A stretch of 34,856 nucleotides of DNA. Source: Planctomycetota bacterium. GTDB lineage: Bacteria; Planctomycetota; Brocadiia; Brocadiales; Brocadiaceae. The stretch spans positions 1-34,856 of the forward strand of contig JAHFOY010000015.1 in NCBI GenBank assembly GCA_023261485.1, read 5' to 3'. Shown here piece after piece: positions 20,468 to 34,723 of the stretch (the stretch's first letter is position 1; each line of letters opens with the position of its first letter). The translations under genes and the position numbers were made by a program. The notes beneath the pieces are model-generated. The model was not told where the DNA came from, ran no database searches, and saw nothing but the letters and a program-made list of their open reading frames with translations.

Positions 20468-23152
20468 TTATCCAATATCGTTCAAAATAAGTTTTATTTT
20501 TTGTATCTGCTCTAACAATTCTTTTTCGCGGTTTTGTTCCATTGCTACTACATGGGCAGGCGCTCTTGCAACAAAATCTTTATTTTCCAGCTTTCGTTTC
20601 ACCACCATTAAGTGATTTTCAAGCTGATTCAGATGTTTCAACTGACGCTCCTTCTCTGCGGCGGGGTCAATAATACCCTCAAGAGGTACAAATGCCTGTA
20701 TTTGTCCGATAACCTCAGAGGCGGCATTATCAGGCTTTGAAAGATTATTGCCGATTTCCAGTCGTTCGAGGTTGGCCATCCGTTTGAGCAAATCTGAATG
20801 TTCATATAAACCGTATTCACTGTCTCCCGAAACGGAGATGATTGCGTCCAACTTTTGTTTTTCTTTGAGATTCATCTTACTGCGTATATTCCGAATGGCA
20901 CGGATAATATTCTGCAGGATAGCCATAGTATCCTCGGCGGTTCGGTCTTCATATCGTTTATCTACCGTTGGCCAGGCATCGCATGCAAGGCTTTCGCAAC
21001 CCATGTCTTTCTGTATGTTGATTTTGTTCTCAATCATAATCCCTTTTAAATTATGCCATAGTTCTTCGGTAATAAAAGGCACAAAGGGATGCAGGAGGTG
21101 CAATATCTGATCAAATACCTTTGCAAGGACTGTTTGCGCCACCTTTTTATCCCGGAAACTCACCGGTTCGTATAAACGCGCCTTCACGATTTCCAGATAC
21201 CAATCGCAGAAGGAGTGCCAGGTAAAATCGTAGACGTGCATGGCCGCATCGTTAAATTTGAATTGTTCTAAAGATGCGGTACACATCATTATGGTCATGT
21301 TTAACTGGCTGAGTATCCATCTGTCTTCGAACTGATAATCCGCCGGTTCCAGATTGATCTCTTGTGTATGTTCATCCTTCAGATTCATCATGATAAACCG
21401 CGCCGCATTCCACAATTTGTTGGTAAAATTACGTCCCATTTCGAACTTGCTTTCAGAAAGTTTTATATCCTGACCTTCTGTGGTAAGTACGGTAATCGAA
21501 AATCGTACGGCATCCGCGCCGTACTGATCAATCATGACAAGTGGATCGATGCCGTTACCCAACGATTTGCTCATTTTTCTTCCGATTTCGTCGAGGATTG
21601 TACCGTGGATATAAACGTTGGAGAAGGGGACATGCCGCATGAGTTCAAGACCCATCATGACCATGCGCGCTACCCAGAAATAGATGATCCCCCGGTCGGT
21701 GACAAGGGTAGACGTTGGATAATAATATTTCAGCTCCGGTGTCTCTTTAGGCCATCCCATCGTGGAAAAAGGCCATAATGCAGAACTGAACCATGTATCC
21801 AGCACGTCCTCGTCCTGTTTAAGTTTTTTGCTGCCGCACTTGGAACACTTCTCAGGCGTACTGCTTGATACGGTGATTGCTTCACAGTCCTGGCAATACC
21901 ATGCGGGGATACGATGCCCCCACCATATCTGCCTTGAAATACACCAGTCACGGACATTTTCAAGCCAGCTTAGATATATTTTTTCCCATCGCTCCGGAAA
22001 GAAGGTCACCGATTTGTTTCCGGAAGCCTGGATAGCAGCATCCGCAAGGGGACGCATCTTTACAAACCACTGGTCTGAAATATACGGTTCAATAACCGTA
22101 TGACACCGGTAACAATGCCCGACGGAGTGTTTGTGTGGTGTAACCATCTCGATGAATTTCTTTAATTTTAATTCTTCTACTAGCGCATTTCTGCATTCGA
22201 ACCGGTCCAGTCCCTCATATTCCCCCGCATGTTCGTTCATGCCCCCGTTCTCTAGCATAACAGCAATCGGGGTTAGGTTGTGGCGTTTGCCCATTTCGAA
22301 ATCATTAGGATCGTGAGCCGGAGTAACCTTGACGGCGCCCGTTCCAAAGGACGTATCCACAAAATCATCCGCAATTATTGGTATTTCCCGGTCAACGATA
22401 GGGAGCGTGAGCATCTCACCTATCATGTCCTTATAACGGTCGTCCTTCGGATTAACGGCTACCGCAACGTCGCCCAGCATTGTTTCTGGTCGGGTTGTGG
22501 CTACCACAATATAAAGATGCGGGGCGTCTCTGAACGGGTATTTTATGTGCCACAGGTGTCCCTCGTGCTCCTCATGCTCAACCTCGTCATCAGCAAGGGC
22601 TGTGCAGCATCGCGGACACCAGTTGATCATGTACTTGCCCTTGTAGATTAATCCCCTCTCGAAGAGGCGTACAAAGGTTTCCTTCACTGCCGCCGAGAGT
22701 CCTTCATCCATAGTGAAACGTTCCCTTGTCCAGTCGCAGGAACTCCCCAGCTTTTTCAACTGATTTATAATGGTCGAGCCATATTGATTCTTCCATTTCC
22801 AGACCTCTTCTACGAAGCGTTCGCGCCCCAATTGCTCACGTTTGATGTGTTTTGTGGCCAGTTCCCGTTCGACCACATTCTGGGTGGCAATGCCTGCATG
22901 GTCTGTGCCGGGCATCCAGAGGGCTGTGTATCCCTGCATGCGTCTCCATCGGATTAAAATATCCTGGATAATATTATTCAGGGCATGCCCCATATGAAGC
23001 ACACCTGTTACGTTTGGAGGCGGAATGACGATGGTATAAGGTTTCTTCGAGGAATCCGGTACGCTGTGAAAAACCCCTTTTTCCTCCCAGAAACGGTACC
23101 ACTTATCTTCTATTTCTTTAGGATTGTATTGCGTTGATAGTATTGTCTGCAT
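20468..23152 (-). CDS. valS: Valyl-tRNA synthetase
   Basis: An 894-residue class I synthetase that charges tRNA-Val. The HIGH-type motif is PPPNVTGVLHMGH (44-56) and the KMSKS motif is at 526-530. The editing (CP1) domain includes TTRPETMLGDVAV (219-231) and GTGAVKVTPAHDPNDF (270-285). There are zinc-finger-type cysteines at CPRC and at C420, C423, C436 and C439. The C-terminus ends in the coiled coil typical of ValRS (AAEKERQLKHLNQLENHL onward). It is complete and normal in length. No T-box leader is visible upstream; instead the upstream DNA is the left arm of the GxxExxY cassette. Two unrelated signalling or exported genes follow in the same operon. Confidence 0.97.
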   Translation of the reverse strand: MQTILSTQYNPKEIEDKWYRFWEEKGVFHSVPDSSKKPYTIVIPPPNVTGVLHMGHALNNIIQDILIRWRRMQGYTALWMPGTDHAGIATQNVVERELATKHIKREQLGRERFVEEVWKWKNQYGSTIINQLKKLGSSCDWTRERFTMDEGLSAAVKETFVRLFERGLIYKGKYMINWCPRCCTALADDEVEHEEHEGHLWHIKYPFRDAPHLYIVVATTRPETMLGDVAVAVNPKDDRYKDMIGEMLTLPIVDREIPIIADDFVDTSFGTGAVKVTPAHDPNDFEMGKRHNLTPIAVMLENGGMNEHAGEYEGLDRFECRNALVEELKLKKFIEMVTPHKHSVGHCYRCHTVIEPYISDQWFVKMRPLADAAIQASGNKSVTFFPERWEKIYLSWLENVRDWCISRQIWWGHRIPAWYCQDCEAITVSSSTPEKCSKCGSKKLKQDEDVLDTWFSSALWPFSTMGWPKETPELKYYYPTSTLVTDRGIIYFWVARMVMMGLELMRHVPFSNVYIHGTILDEIGRKMSKSLGNGIDPLVMIDQYGADAVRFSITVLTTEGQDIKLSESKFEMGRNFTNKLWNAARFIMMNLKDEHTQEINLEPADYQFEDRWILSQLNMTIMMCTASLEQFKFNDAAMHVYDFTWHSFCDWYLEIVKARLYEPVSFRDKKVAQTVLAKVFDQILHLLHPFVPFITEELWHNLKGIMIENKINIQKDMGCESLACDAWPTVDKRYEDRTAEDTMAILQNIIRAIRNIRSKMNLKEKQKLDAIISVSGDSEYGLYEHSDLLKRMANLERLEIGNNLSKPDNAASEVIGQIQAFVPLEGIIDPAAEKERQLKHLNQLENHLMVVKRKLENKDFVARAPAHVVAMEQNREKELLEQIQKIKLILNDIG

Positions 23153-23171
23153 AGTTTATTAATTGTAAATA

Positions 23172-23617
23172 TTTAGCCACGAATGAACACGAATATACAC
23201 AAATTAAAAATATTAATTTTATAGAATAAATCTTTCGGACTCAAGTCGGTCTTTCCCAAAATTCAGGATAATTGCTAATTGTAATCTAGTTGCTTTCAAA
23301 TAATTAAGAATTTGAGATCTATGTGCATCTATAATTTCTTCTACAGCTTTTAGCTCTAAAATGATTTTATCTTCAACCAAAATATCTGCATAGTATTCTC
23401 CTACCACCTCTTCTTCAAAATAAACAGTTATAGGCGCTTGTTGTTTTGCTTGAATACCTTCTCTTTTAAATAGTACCATCAGTGCATTTTCATAAACTTT
23501 TTCAAGGAAACCATAGCCGAGTTTGTTATGCACTTGCATAGCCAATCCGGCGATTTTGTAAGATAAATCCTTATATAATATTTTATTAGTGTCCATTCGT
23601 GCCAATTCGTGGCTAAA
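23172..23617. mobile_element. Inverted-repeat-bounded cassette carrying the GxxExxY gene
   Basis: TTTAGCCACGAATGAACACGAAT (first 20 bases TTTAGCCACGAATGAACACG; 23172-23194) is matched in inverted orientation at 23595-23617, with 20 of 23 positions identical. Weaker similarity extends about 13 bases further inward (ATACACAAATTAAAA against GGACACTAATAAAA). The arms enclose only the GxxExxY gene, whose start codon lies in the right arm. The unit is 446 bp and sits between two unrelated genes on the same strand. No transposase is present. The inverted repeats are seen directly; mobility is inferred. Confidence 0.6.
23219..23596 (-). CDS. GxxExxY protein (PD-(D/E)XK nuclease-like superfamily)
   Basis: From ATG 23596 the product has 125 residues. 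The naming motif is GFLEKVY (29-35) within VHNKLGYGFLEKVYENAL. A nuclease-like acid cluster follows: D71 in YADILVEDK, then E81-L-K83 in IILELKAVEEI, fitting D-x(n)-E-x-K. The end, LQLAIILNFGKDRLES, is also typical. The family is widespread, often multicopy, and has no agreed function. An in-frame TTG at 23605 lies further into the inverted repeat and is less likely. There is no ribosome binding site because the upstream DNA is the repeat arm. The gene reads toward valS but is separate from it. Cytoplasmic; nuclease activity is inferred from fold family only. Confidence 0.85.
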   Translation of the reverse strand: MDTNKILYKDLSYKIAGLAMQVHNKLGYGFLEKVYENALMVLFKREGIQAKQQAPITVYFEEEVVGEYYADILVEDKIILELKAVEEIIDAHRSQILNYLKATRLQLAIILNFGKDRLESERFIL

Positions 23618-23626
23618 TAATGTTTT

Positions 23627-25762
23627 TCACTCCTCTTCCATTTCAAAAAGGGTGACCGAATAAGAAATCTTCGTACCATCGCGTTCGAGCTCCACAGTAC
23701 TGGTATCTCCAAACTTCTTTGTCTGGAGGTAATGAACCAGGTCTGGCACACCTTTTACTGCGTTTCCGTCAATTGACGAAATAACATCACCAACTATAAA
23801 TCCCGCCTTTTCTGCGGGGCTTCCGGGGGTTATTTCCTGTATGACCAGTTTGTTTTCGCTTGTTCTTTTCAGTTGAACCCCTAAATATATCCTTTTTTGC
23901 TCCGCTAAAGGAGTGATAACCCAGACAAAATCAGCCGGTTCTAAAGGAATTTCAGGTAAAAACAGGTCATGCTCTGGTGTAGGTTTTTCTCCGTGAAACT
24001 CAGCGGGATAAATTGTGTAATAGGGTAAGTGCGTGCGTCTAAACACCTTTTTCGGGATGCCAAAATCGTAGATTATATGACCATTTCCGGCAAAGGCCAG
24101 AAACTTCTTATCTTTGCCTTCCCAGGATGATAAGTAATCTGCAATTGTTTGGGCCATGTACTCTTCCCATAAATTCTGAACGTCGTTATATTTTTCTAAA
24201 TCGGCTGTACGGTCCACCATGTGCTCCCGAATAGCCCTCTCCAGATAAGCCCGGTGAAAATTATCGGTCGTATCAATTTCAGGCAATTGTTTTTTCTCTT
24301 CCTCACTTAACCCTTTAAGGCCGTTTTTACTTACCATTTTTACCATTGCCTTTGGGGCGTTTAAGGCGATCACGGGGATTTTCTTTTCACGTGCAAAATC
24401 CAGGATGTCTTTATACAAATCATAATCATATCCCCATTCCGAATTCCAGCGGGTCTCTTCCAGAAATTTATTCTCGTCAATTTCACCGGCAATCCATTGG
24501 TCCAGAAAAGGCTGATATGGCCTTGTGAACATCTCCATACCAACGGCAATGTTGTTTCCAAATTTCTCATAAAACGAATTGAGTATTTTTAATTGCACCT
24601 GGTGAGCAGCCTTATTGGCGTGGGTTTCGCCGACGTAAAGGACACGGGCGCAATCAAAAAAATGGGTCAAGTTGGAAAACTGCACCTTTTCGCCTGTCGG
24701 GACATGAATAACATCATCAACGGCTACGTGTGATGGAAAATTCCTTAAGTTGTTTTCTTCTGAAAAGGCATTCATTGGTAGTGATAGGGAGAAAGTCAAA
24801 AGAAATAAAATGGCCTTGCCAAAGTTCTTCAACCAGAGATGTTTGGCAAGACTCTTCATAACCCTGAAGGTAGTAAATCCAATCGGTACCAGTTTTGGCA
24901 GGATAAAATCATGTACTTTTACGGAGGATACTGATTCTCCCAATATTTCTATGGTATTCAAATTTTGCTCTCCTATGGAATGAGTTTTTGCTGCCTTTAA
25001 AAGCGACGACTGGGAAGGATGTGCGTTAATAACCTCCGCTACGACCCGGTCAATAGCGATGCAGTCAATGCCCCCGAAGATTAAGGAAACTTGTTTTGGT
25101 ATTCCCCCGGAAGGTCCGTGTTTTTCCATAGCCATAATGGCATCCACAATGGTAAACGCGGGTTTCACGGCGTGATAATTGGCCAGCAGCATCTCTGCAT
25201 ACCATTCAATGTCATCTTTTGATTGAAAATGACGCCAGGCCTTTCTCTTGCCGCTGACACACCCATACATATTTTTTACTCCGGCGGTATATAACAGTTG
25301 CCCATGCGCCTTGAGCTTGGGGATGTTGATAATGGCATCAACGTCCAGCGCCCTGCCGGAGACGGTGAGTGTGAACGGTTTTGTTCCGCATTTTGTCTTC
25401 ACCCGGCGTGGTGAGTCGAGTTCAATAATCTCGATACCATGCTCTTCGGCAAAACGGTCAATACCTGCACGTCTGGCAATCTTTGATATAGCGCCAAAGG
25501 CCGGGCTATCGCCGATAATCGGTGTTGCGCCCATTTCCAGCACCTTTTTGGCTACTACCTCGATGACCATTGGATGGGTAATGGTGCAGTCTTCAGGCGC
25601 GCTTTCCCTGATAAAGTTCGGCTTCAAGAGTACCTTTGCCCCCTTTTTAACGATGGTGTGAATACCGCCAAAGTATGCAAAGGTCTGTTCGACAGCCGTA
25701 ATGACTTTATCCCTGTCGTAACTTTCACAGCGGACGATAGAGACACTTGTTTTATCAGTCAT
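23627..25762 (-). CDS. DUF362 - transmembrane - ChaN-like - PDZ fusion protein
   Basis: An unusual 711-residue fusion (ATG 25762; a TTG two codons upstream is less likely). Numbered from that TTG, DUF362 spans about 5-300 (VLLKPNFIRESAPED, IGDSPAFGAISKIA, NIPKLKAHGQLLYTAGVKN). A hydrophobic helix lies at 317-335 (FGKAILFLLTFSLSLPMNAF). A ChaN/DUF399 haem-uptake-like domain spans about 350-615 (VLYVGETHANKAAHQVQ, VGMEMFTRPYQPFLD, AGNGHIIYDFGIP). A PDZ domain spans about 625-706 (LGVQLKR, ITPGSPAEKAGFIVGDVI). The predicted topology puts DUF362 in the cytoplasm and ChaN-PDZ outside. The junction begins with a Met followed by a perfect signal-peptide pattern (ATG at 24859), as if two genes had merged. 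A repeat element lies upstream. Confidence 0.85.
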   Translation of the reverse strand: MTDKTSVSIVRCESYDRDKVITAVEQTFAYFGGIHTIVKKGAKVLLKPNFIRESAPEDCTITHPMVIEVVAKKVLEMGATPIIGDSPAFGAISKIARRAGIDRFAEEHGIEIIELDSPRRVKTKCGTKPFTLTVSGRALDVDAIINIPKLKAHGQLLYTAGVKNMYGCVSGKRKAWRHFQSKDDIEWYAEMLLANYHAVKPAFTIVDAIMAMEKHGPSGGIPKQVSLIFGGIDCIAIDRVVAEVINAHPSQSSLLKAAKTHSIGEQNLNTIEILGESVSSVKVHDFILPKLVPIGFTTFRVMKSLAKHLWLKNFGKAILFLLTFSLSLPMNAFSEENNLRNFPSHVAVDDVIHVPTGEKVQFSNLTHFFDCARVLYVGETHANKAAHQVQLKILNSFYEKFGNNIAVGMEMFTRPYQPFLDQWIAGEIDENKFLEETRWNSEWGYDYDLYKDILDFAREKKIPVIALNAPKAMVKMVSKNGLKGLSEEEKKQLPEIDTTDNFHRAYLERAIREHMVDRTADLEKYNDVQNLWEEYMAQTIADYLSSWEGKDKKFLAFAGNGHIIYDFGIPKKVFRRTHLPYYTIYPAEFHGEKPTPEHDLFLPEIPLEPADFVWVITPLAEQKRIYLGVQLKRTSENKLVIQEITPGSPAEKAGFIVGDVISSIDGNAVKGVPDLVHYLQTKKFGDTSTVELERDGTKISYSVTLFEMEEE

Positions 25763-25786
25763 AAACAAACCTAAAGGTTGTAATAA

Positions 25787-26111: not shown

Positions 26112-26774
26112 CTAGCCTTTTTTCATGCCCTTTTTATCAGCTTCCTTCAGCTTGAGATTAAGGATTTCCCGTTTCCTTTTTATTGTTGCCGGTTGAACAA
26201 AATAATAATTAAAGAGGGCTTCCAACACATCGAGGTTCCAATCTGCCTCGCCTGGCTCAATGTCTACAACTTCTCCAGGCCTTTCGCTCTTTATCGGATG
26301 GGCGGTATAGTTGCCTATCTTTCGAACGGCATCGATTGCTTCTACTATGTAAGGCGGCAAGTTTCCATTGTCTATCACTTCCTGGATTTCATCTGCGAGT
26401 TTGGAGGGTTTAACATTAGCCATTTCCTTTAAAAGATGCTGTAGACAGCGACGACTTATGGCAGAGCTTGCCTTTGGACTATCGGCAAGCACCGTGCATG
26501 CTTCTTTGTAAACTTCGGCAAATTCTTCAGGCACTTCTTTCGGGAGTGGTATACGGCTTGGGGTCCTCGGATAAATAAGGCGTTCGCCTTTAACCGACTC
26601 AAGCATAGATCGGCCTCCGATACTGCCAATTTTCCCGTTTACCAAAACAAGTACTACCCGTTCACAGGACGGACACTTCCTGCTAACAACGCCCCAATTG
26701 CCGTCCGCGTCGTTACCAACGGGTATTACCTCGTAAAAATCGTGAAATGATTCCAGACAGTGCGGACATTTCAT
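26112..26774 (-). CDS. Zinc-ribbon DUF4145 domain protein
   Basis: A 220-residue protein. The N-terminus has two CxxC pairs (CPHC at 3-6, CPSC at 34-37) forming a probable zinc ribbon. The region about 85-190 fits DUF4145: EVYKEACTVLADSPKASSAI, RRCLQHLLKEM, LADEIQEVIDNGNLP and VRKIGNYTAHP, a helical domain common in restriction- and defence-related proteins and in stand-alone form. The C-terminus is Lys-rich. ATG 26774 has AAGGA about 8 bases upstream. The gene starts 45 bases after the RelE-like toxin gene on the same strand and ends at a good terminator, so it may be the third member of that operon. Molecular function unknown. Confidence 0.83.
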   Translation of the reverse strand: MKCPHCLESFHDFYEVIPVGNDADGNWGVVSRKCPSCERVVLVLVNGKIGSIGGRSMLESVKGERLIYPRTPSRIPLPKEVPEEFAEVYKEACTVLADSPKASSAISRRCLQHLLKEMANVKPSKLADEIQEVIDNGNLPPYIVEAIDAVRKIGNYTAHPIKSERPGEVVDIEPGEADWNLDVLEALFNYYFVQPATIKRKREILNLKLKEADKKGMKKG

Positions 26775-34614: not shown

Positions 34615-34723
34615 TTCACCGCAAAGATGCAAAGGGGCACGAAGACAACCCCCTAAATCCCCCTTTGATAAGGGGGATTAATCGGTTTGTCAATCTCTGC
34701 GTTCTTTGCGTCTCTGCGGTGAA
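34615..34723. repeat. Inverted-repeat element with nested hairpin
   Basis: TTCACCGCAAAGATGCAAAG (34615-34634) and CTTTGCGTCTCTGCGGTGAA (34704-34723) form a 20-bp imperfect terminal inverted repeat (18 of 20 match). Inside is a perfect 10-bp hairpin AATCCCCCTT-TGAT-AAGGGGGATT (34656-34679). It begins 8 bases after the aldehyde dehydrogenase stop. The size and end structure suggest a MITE-like element; a similar end style flanks the GxxExxY gene. Confidence 0.7.

Follow-up and report, generated by a model that had tools for sequence, protein, structure and literature searches.

The window is a 34,856-nucleotide stretch of a Planctomycetota genome, and the unit examined here lies in it between valS and a DUF362/ChaN/PDZ gene. 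The unit measures 446 bp (23172–23617) and consists of two inverted arms enclosing one gene, which encodes a GxxExxY protein. All three genes are co-directional. The features of the locus are listed below.

20468–23152, − strand: valS, downstream of the element, co-directional with it
23153–23171: AT-rich stretch AGTTTATTAATTGTAAATA, from the valS start to the left arm, missing at empty sites
23172–23204, + strand: left arm; terminal TTTAGC, then units CACGAAT starting at 23178, CACGAAT at 23188 and CACAAAT at 23198, with 3-nt spacers
23219–23596, − strand: GxxExxY gene, 125 aa, predicted RecB/Cas4-type PD-(D/E)XK nuclease; motif residues G29xxE32xxY35, D71, E81-x-K83 and Q95xxxY99, numbered from the ATG
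23594–23596, − strand: ATG start codon, formed by arm unit 2 and the first spacer base, CACGA-ATG-GACACTAAT
23585–23617, − strand: right arm, inverted; TTTAGC, then units CACGAAT (23605–23611), CACGAAT (23595–23601) and CACTAAT (23585–23591)
23618–23626: stretch from the right arm to the stop codon of the upstream gene
23627–25768, − strand: DUF362/ChaN-like/PDZ gene, upstream of the element, co-directional with it; 3 bp from valS at empty sites

Architecture of the arms

The initial annotation described the ends of the unit as 23-bp imperfect inverted repeats. The arms do match at 20 of 23 bases (23172–23194 on the + strand against 23595–23617 on the − strand), with all three mismatches confined to the 3-nt spacer that separates two CACGAAT units. 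The stated length, however, falls short: inverted similarity continues over 42 nt, with 81% identity (23170–23211/23578–23619), and the true arms are about 33–42 nt long, with tandem direct repeats inside the inverted repeat. In each arm, a 7-bp unit, CRCNRAK (here CACGAAT), is repeated about three times with 2–3 nt between copies; the units lie at 23178, 23188 and 23198 on the + strand and at 23605, 23595 and 23585 on the − strand. The pattern CRCNRAK-N3-CRCNRAK occurs five times in the whole window, four of them in the two arms, compared to 0.14 expected from shuffled sequences. An outer end of the form GTAAnnnT may lie within the AT-rich stretch next to valS.

The ATG had also been placed inside one arm, without a ribosome binding site of its own, and this is indeed the arrangement: the start codon overlaps unit 2 of the right arm, the arm encodes the residues MDTN of the protein, and no Shine-Dalgarno-like sequence lies ahead of the ATG (23596–23594). 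Elsewhere in the window, a CGCAAAG-type arm is found at 34695–34710, near the right end, where its partner would fall outside the window, and a 220-residue DUF4145 protein is encoded upstream of the valS region (26112–26774, − strand).

The GxxExxY protein

In profile searches, the encoded protein matches TIGR04256 (GxxExxY; 137.2 bits, cut-off 35) and PF13366 (PDDEXK_3; 134 bits, cut-off 22). Together with the arm match, this bears out the earlier description of the unit as a single 125-residue GxxExxY gene between inverted ends. The nuclease residues (D, ExK and QxxxY) are intact in the window protein. Among 44 aligned relatives, D71, K83 and Tyr99 are invariant, and E81 and Q95 are conserved in at least 90% (residues are counted from the ATG; the alignment numbering is 2 lower). 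The AlphaFold model of the protein has a pLDDT of 96.7, and its nearest solved folds are SSO0001, a Cas4 family nuclease, and lambda exonuclease, with TM scores of 0.5–0.6; a search of solved structures by sequence returned no significant relative. Based on the motifs and the model, GxxExxY is predicted to be a minimal PD-(D/E)XK nuclease of the RecB/Cas4/lambda-exonuclease type. Pfam and the fold comparison place it with PD-(D/E)XK enzymes, and it has no fold of a DDE, HUH, tyrosine or serine recombinase. Most nucleases of the RecB/Cas4 type are exonucleases, and none is known to transpose DNA unaided, which speaks against the mechanism proposed below. The dN/dS ratio between non-orthologous GxxExxY copies is 0.05–0.13 where dS could be estimated, which indicates that the protein is under purifying selection.

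Three other assignments of the gene were considered and rejected. As a defence gene, it matches no PADLOC model; as a phage gene, its sole PHROG match is a weak one, to an endonuclease (E 0.002); and as a plasmid-borne family, its relatives occur on just 8 of 72,556 plasmids.

Arms around GxxExxY genes in other genomes

Small inverted-repeat elements of this kind form a widespread family, of which the window element is one member. We surveyed 80 GxxExxY loci fetched from other genomes, which represent 18 phyla among the loci with assigned names; cultured carriers include Propionigenium maris (L158) and Flavobacterium succinicans (L173). Inverted similarity between the two flanks, scored without reference to any motif, has a median of 36, compared to 17 at offset positions of the same loci, and 58 of the 80 loci exceed the 99th percentile of the control. 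With the unit model, at least two units are present on both sides of 68 of 112 GxxExxY loci, versus one of 396 offset control positions, so that arms flank the gene in most sampled genomes. Unit-to-unit spacing is mostly 2–3 nt, giving a 9–10 bp repeat, and the consensus of 122 arms begins with ATTARC, followed by CRCNRAK units.

The genome that contains the window comprises 217 contigs totalling 2.79 Mb, and TIGR04256 matches it seven times, at six loci. Five of these loci each have their own inverted arm pair, and the arm types differ: CGCAGAG twice, CACGAAT, CACGGAA and CACCAAG-like. The sixth copy is truncated and has kept one arm. The CACGAAT-type arm pattern has 34 matches in this genome at up to three mismatches (none for the reversed control), and the CGCARAG type has 104, dispersed throughout. 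Such dispersal is what would be expected of ordinary REP-like host repeats, or of chance, with a GxxExxY gene having landed between repeats that were already there. We consider this very improbable: the control count is near zero, several GxxExxY copies in one genome each have their own arm type, arm type follows the protein rather than the phylum (see below), and the DNA match between copies begins and ends at the arms. According to the initial annotation, arms scattered over the genome with no enrichment near GxxExxY genes, together with a lack of empty sites, would speak against a cassette. The arms are dispersed, yet strongly enriched at these genes, and empty sites exist.

A comparable arrangement surrounds a second, unrelated gene. 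Genes of the four-helix-bundle family TIGR02436 (S23/IVP; loci L117–L146) are present in 27 of 29 genomes related to that of the window, and 23 of 29 TIGR02436 loci exceed the inverted-repeat threshold. Their arms are inverted, degenerate short tandem repeats with a motif particular to each locus (AGTAGCC, ACAGGAA, GGATGAA, CGAATAT and others), and the genes are co-directional in 13 of 13 tandem contexts. These four-helix-bundle genes in analogous arms hint at a wider class of such containers.

Empty sites, other locations and gene-less copies

The orthologous gap between valS and the upstream gene measures 3 bp in three relatives, which supplies the empty valS site that the initial annotation proposed to look for, and 14–15 bp in two more. 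The same junction holds other elements elsewhere: CGCAAAG-type inverted elements in three genomes (G024, G025 and G017) and, in G004, a right-hand remnant whose end is of the CGCAAAG type. The left CACGAAT arm at the valS site is common to G005 and G027, so the window insertion predates those splits. Copies of the window element also lie elsewhere: G001, G030, G022 and G055, the last of another family, carry it at unrelated sites, and G005 carries an internally deleted form; similarity between these copies begins and ends at the arms. DNA identity between the closest copies is about 80%, so a very recent jump has not been caught.

The majority of arm pairs have no gene. The window genome contains many such inverted pairs, of 66–283 bp, and a joined-flank search found empty counterparts in relatives for six of ten gene-less elements. 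Full and gene-less copies have terminal inverted repeats in common. One gene-less element in G003 retains 59 nt of the end of the gene (83% identity), and another, in the window genome, retains a 39-nt remnant (85% identity). These remnants imply that gene-less copies arise by internal deletion, as MITEs do.

A CACGAAT element of the window genome (G000 contig C43, 6609–6704; orthologous site in G002–G004) has an empty counterpart in two relatives, and the orthologous site carries a CGCAGAG/CGCAAAG-type element in three other genomes; different elements at one junction point to its repeated use. Within one genus, a single gene junction carries GxxExxY elements of two arm types (L034, G000 C206; L097, G001 C29). 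At another orthologous element site (L276; G004 C81, 28500–29800), a 969-bp insert starts with a CACGAAT-type arm and contains long open frames with no GxxExxY match, possibly representing an element with cargo.

The unit had been proposed as a self-contained mobile cassette. Mobility is upheld by the arms, the empty sites, the copies at other loci and the gene-less derivatives. Self-containment did not gain the same support, as neither a transposition intermediate nor a clear target duplication was found. The arm-gene-arm container recurs in at least 18 phyla; sites can be empty or used again, deletion has produced derivatives that lack the gene, and insertion is in the sense direction between co-directional genes.

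Insertion context and target duplications

The insertion spots are short gaps between stop and start codons. In tandem contexts, 72 of 73 GxxExxY loci are co-oriented with both neighbours, and a second method based on stop-free runs gave 60 of 60. The GxxExxY start codon lies within the arm in 20 of 72 loci and at most 25 nt past it in 28 more. Where it is encoded by the arm, the first residues are MDTN, MNTN, MNTD or MNAD, which correspond to translated arm units. A start codon supplied by the arm would explain the missing ribosome site, and its location within the arm binds arm and gene into one unit.

The strict sense orientation in operons, which extends to the gene remnants of gene-less copies, could also reflect an element acting at the RNA level, similar to the intervening sequences (IVS) of 23S rRNA. 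The element would then lie in polycistronic mRNA as a long hairpin, subject to trimming by RNase III or to dispersal through reverse transcription of mRNA, and its arms would matter as RNA stems. The inverted ends of IVS do pair and are cut by RNase III (PMC4990558), and the element RNA folds better than its shuffles (z −4.9). Sense orientation is, however, also expected if only expressed copies persist, and the element has no match in Rfam. Between arms, the spacers agree at just 47% (about 34% expected from base composition), compared to 89–100% at most unit positions, which favours recognition of the units over pairing of a stem. We regard an RNA-level element as improbable. A plain RNA hairpin was rejected as the reason for the arms, since the spacers are not complementary between arms despite the significant fold, and a structured RNA was rejected on the Rfam result.

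The target duplication that the initial annotation proposed to look for did not appear in convincing form. When the distance from the arms is held constant, direct repeats are as frequent as expected, and those of at least 7 nt at a free distance are in weak excess (10 versus 4.4 expected), which speaks against the mechanism proposed below. Three elements with empty sites have 6-bp candidate duplications (CCATAA, TTATGA and AGGTAA), two of which include a start codon. The one long direct repeat, at L214 (19 nt, 32 nt when extended), was rejected as a duplication; it is an array of neighbouring arms.

Arm type and protein clade

Within an element, the paired arms have matching bases at variable unit positions 2, 5 and 7 in 89, 94 and 95% of cases, respectively, compared to 46–50% between elements. 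On the protein tree, arm type changes 14 times, whereas 1000 shuffles gave 42 changes on average and never fewer than 35. When only rows with a named phylum are used, the arm motif changes 10 times (20.6 when shuffled) and the phylum 26 times (33 when shuffled). Judging from these sequence comparisons, arm type tracks the protein clade rather than the host phylum.

Arm number follows the gene as well. Matches to the two main arm types number 0–1 in nine related genomes without GxxExxY, against a median of 13 in 50 carriers, a contrast that is partly phylogenetic as the nine genomes are one family. The Spearman correlation between arm number and gene number per genome is 0.66 overall and 0.46 within carriers. 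One efflux-like operon junction holds five orthologous copies, among which units 1–2 vary at 2 of 30 positions and the spacers at 5 of 8. This junction carries a GxxExxY element in several genera of the family (L032, L079, L084, L086 and L088), and some copies thus persist for a long time.

The elements could be mobile and yet be moved by something else, such as a reverse transcriptase, a recombinase or host repair, with GxxExxY as a passenger that aids their persistence, perhaps through homing, exclusion of competitors or an effect akin to addiction. GxxExxY has no obvious transposase chemistry, most arm pairs lack the gene, and the unrelated four-helix-bundle protein in analogous arms indicates that the container need not depend on one enzyme. 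Against such a passenger stand the match of arm type to GxxExxY clade across phyla, the match of arm number to gene number, and a gene start built from arm sequence. Parallel inheritance of arms and gene would nevertheless also be expected if another factor recognized the arms. Overall, we hold a passenger role to be rather unlikely, though the most serious of the alternatives.

Proposed mechanism

On balance, we lean, with modest confidence, toward an insertion-element family with inverted arms of iterated 7-bp units, in which GxxExxY is the element's own enzyme and acts on the arms. The little-studied GxxExxY proteins are probably part of a type of mobile DNA that has been overlooked. Indirect support for the nuclease acting on the arms comes from the tracking of clade by arm type and of gene number by arm number, and from the retention of units while spacers drift. 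A GxxExxY multimer would bind the iterated units on both arms, whose period of 9–10 bp is about one helical turn, and would cut or nick DNA at or near the element ends. The cut could start excision or copying, followed by re-insertion at intergenic junctions of operons, and arm pairs without the gene would rely on enzyme supplied in trans. The GxxExxY gene would be read from the host operon transcript and started at the arm-supplied ATG; this would account for the strict co-orientation and for the lack of a promoter and a ribosome site.

A broader proposal, about which we are more tentative and close to evenly divided, is that a widespread mobile-DNA class relies on GxxExxY proteins as its mobility enzymes. 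Its members would combine a single minimal RecB/Cas4-type PD-(D/E)XK nuclease, clade-specific arms of iterated 7-bp units, sense insertion between operon genes and the generation of large gene-less families, and the four-helix-bundle (S23/IVP) elements would form a sister class that uses the same container.

Comparison with known systems

REPINs and REPtrons, as described in PMC3116915 and PMC3733652, are similar in having paired short inverted repeats between genes, with many gene-less copies and few with one flanked gene. However, their RAYTs are HUH tyrosine transposases and their REPs are GTAG-tagged, whereas the window element has a PD-(D/E)XK nuclease and iterated CRCNRAK arms. The arm consensus ATTARC-CRCNRAK contains no GTAG tag, and neither profiles nor fold identify the window protein as an HUH tyrosine transposase. 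Unlike in REPINs, every GxxExxY gene clade has its own arm type. TIRtrons also resemble the window element in layout, with a RAYT-like gene between diverse terminal inverted repeats that also form dispersed families, but they use another enzyme class, and the portions of PMC3733652 that we draw on describe no iterated unit for them.

Insertion sequences and MITEs share autonomous-looking copies, internally deleted copies with the same ends, and empty sites. GxxExxY elements differ from insertion sequences in lacking a DDE, HUH, tyrosine or serine recombinase, in showing no consistent target duplication, and in lying nearly always in sense orientation between genes. The 23S rRNA IVS is a selfish element of about 430 nt with one small ORF (S23/four-helix-bundle) and inverted ends (PMC4990558), and thus resembles the window element in size, gene content and ends. 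The latter, however, lies between valS and a protein gene rather than in 23S rRNA, its protein is not a four-helix-bundle S23, and its ends are kept as repeated units rather than as a perfect stem. GxxExxY shares the predicted fold and the D, ExK and QxxxY motifs with RecB, Cas4 and lambda exonuclease, but has just 125 residues, no helicase or Fe-S module, and a gene tied to its own DNA repeats.

In open-access full text, we found no paper linking GxxExxY to repeats or mobility; one names it in passing as a domain beside a CRISPR-like reverse transcriptase. Of six arm strings taken literally, not one turned up in a relevant open-access paper, and this literature yielded no description of the short repeats CCACGAATnnnCACGAAT, CCGCAAAGnnCGCAAAG and their relatives.

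The GxxExxY family is large and has a name but no function, and the tie to its own DNA ends provides a first testable role and, for each clade, a defined substrate. It would also account for a large class of short repeats, those just named among them, scattered through environmental genomes. If the nuclease moves the elements, they would represent a transposition-like system whose enzyme has a fold more familiar from DNA repair and CRISPR.
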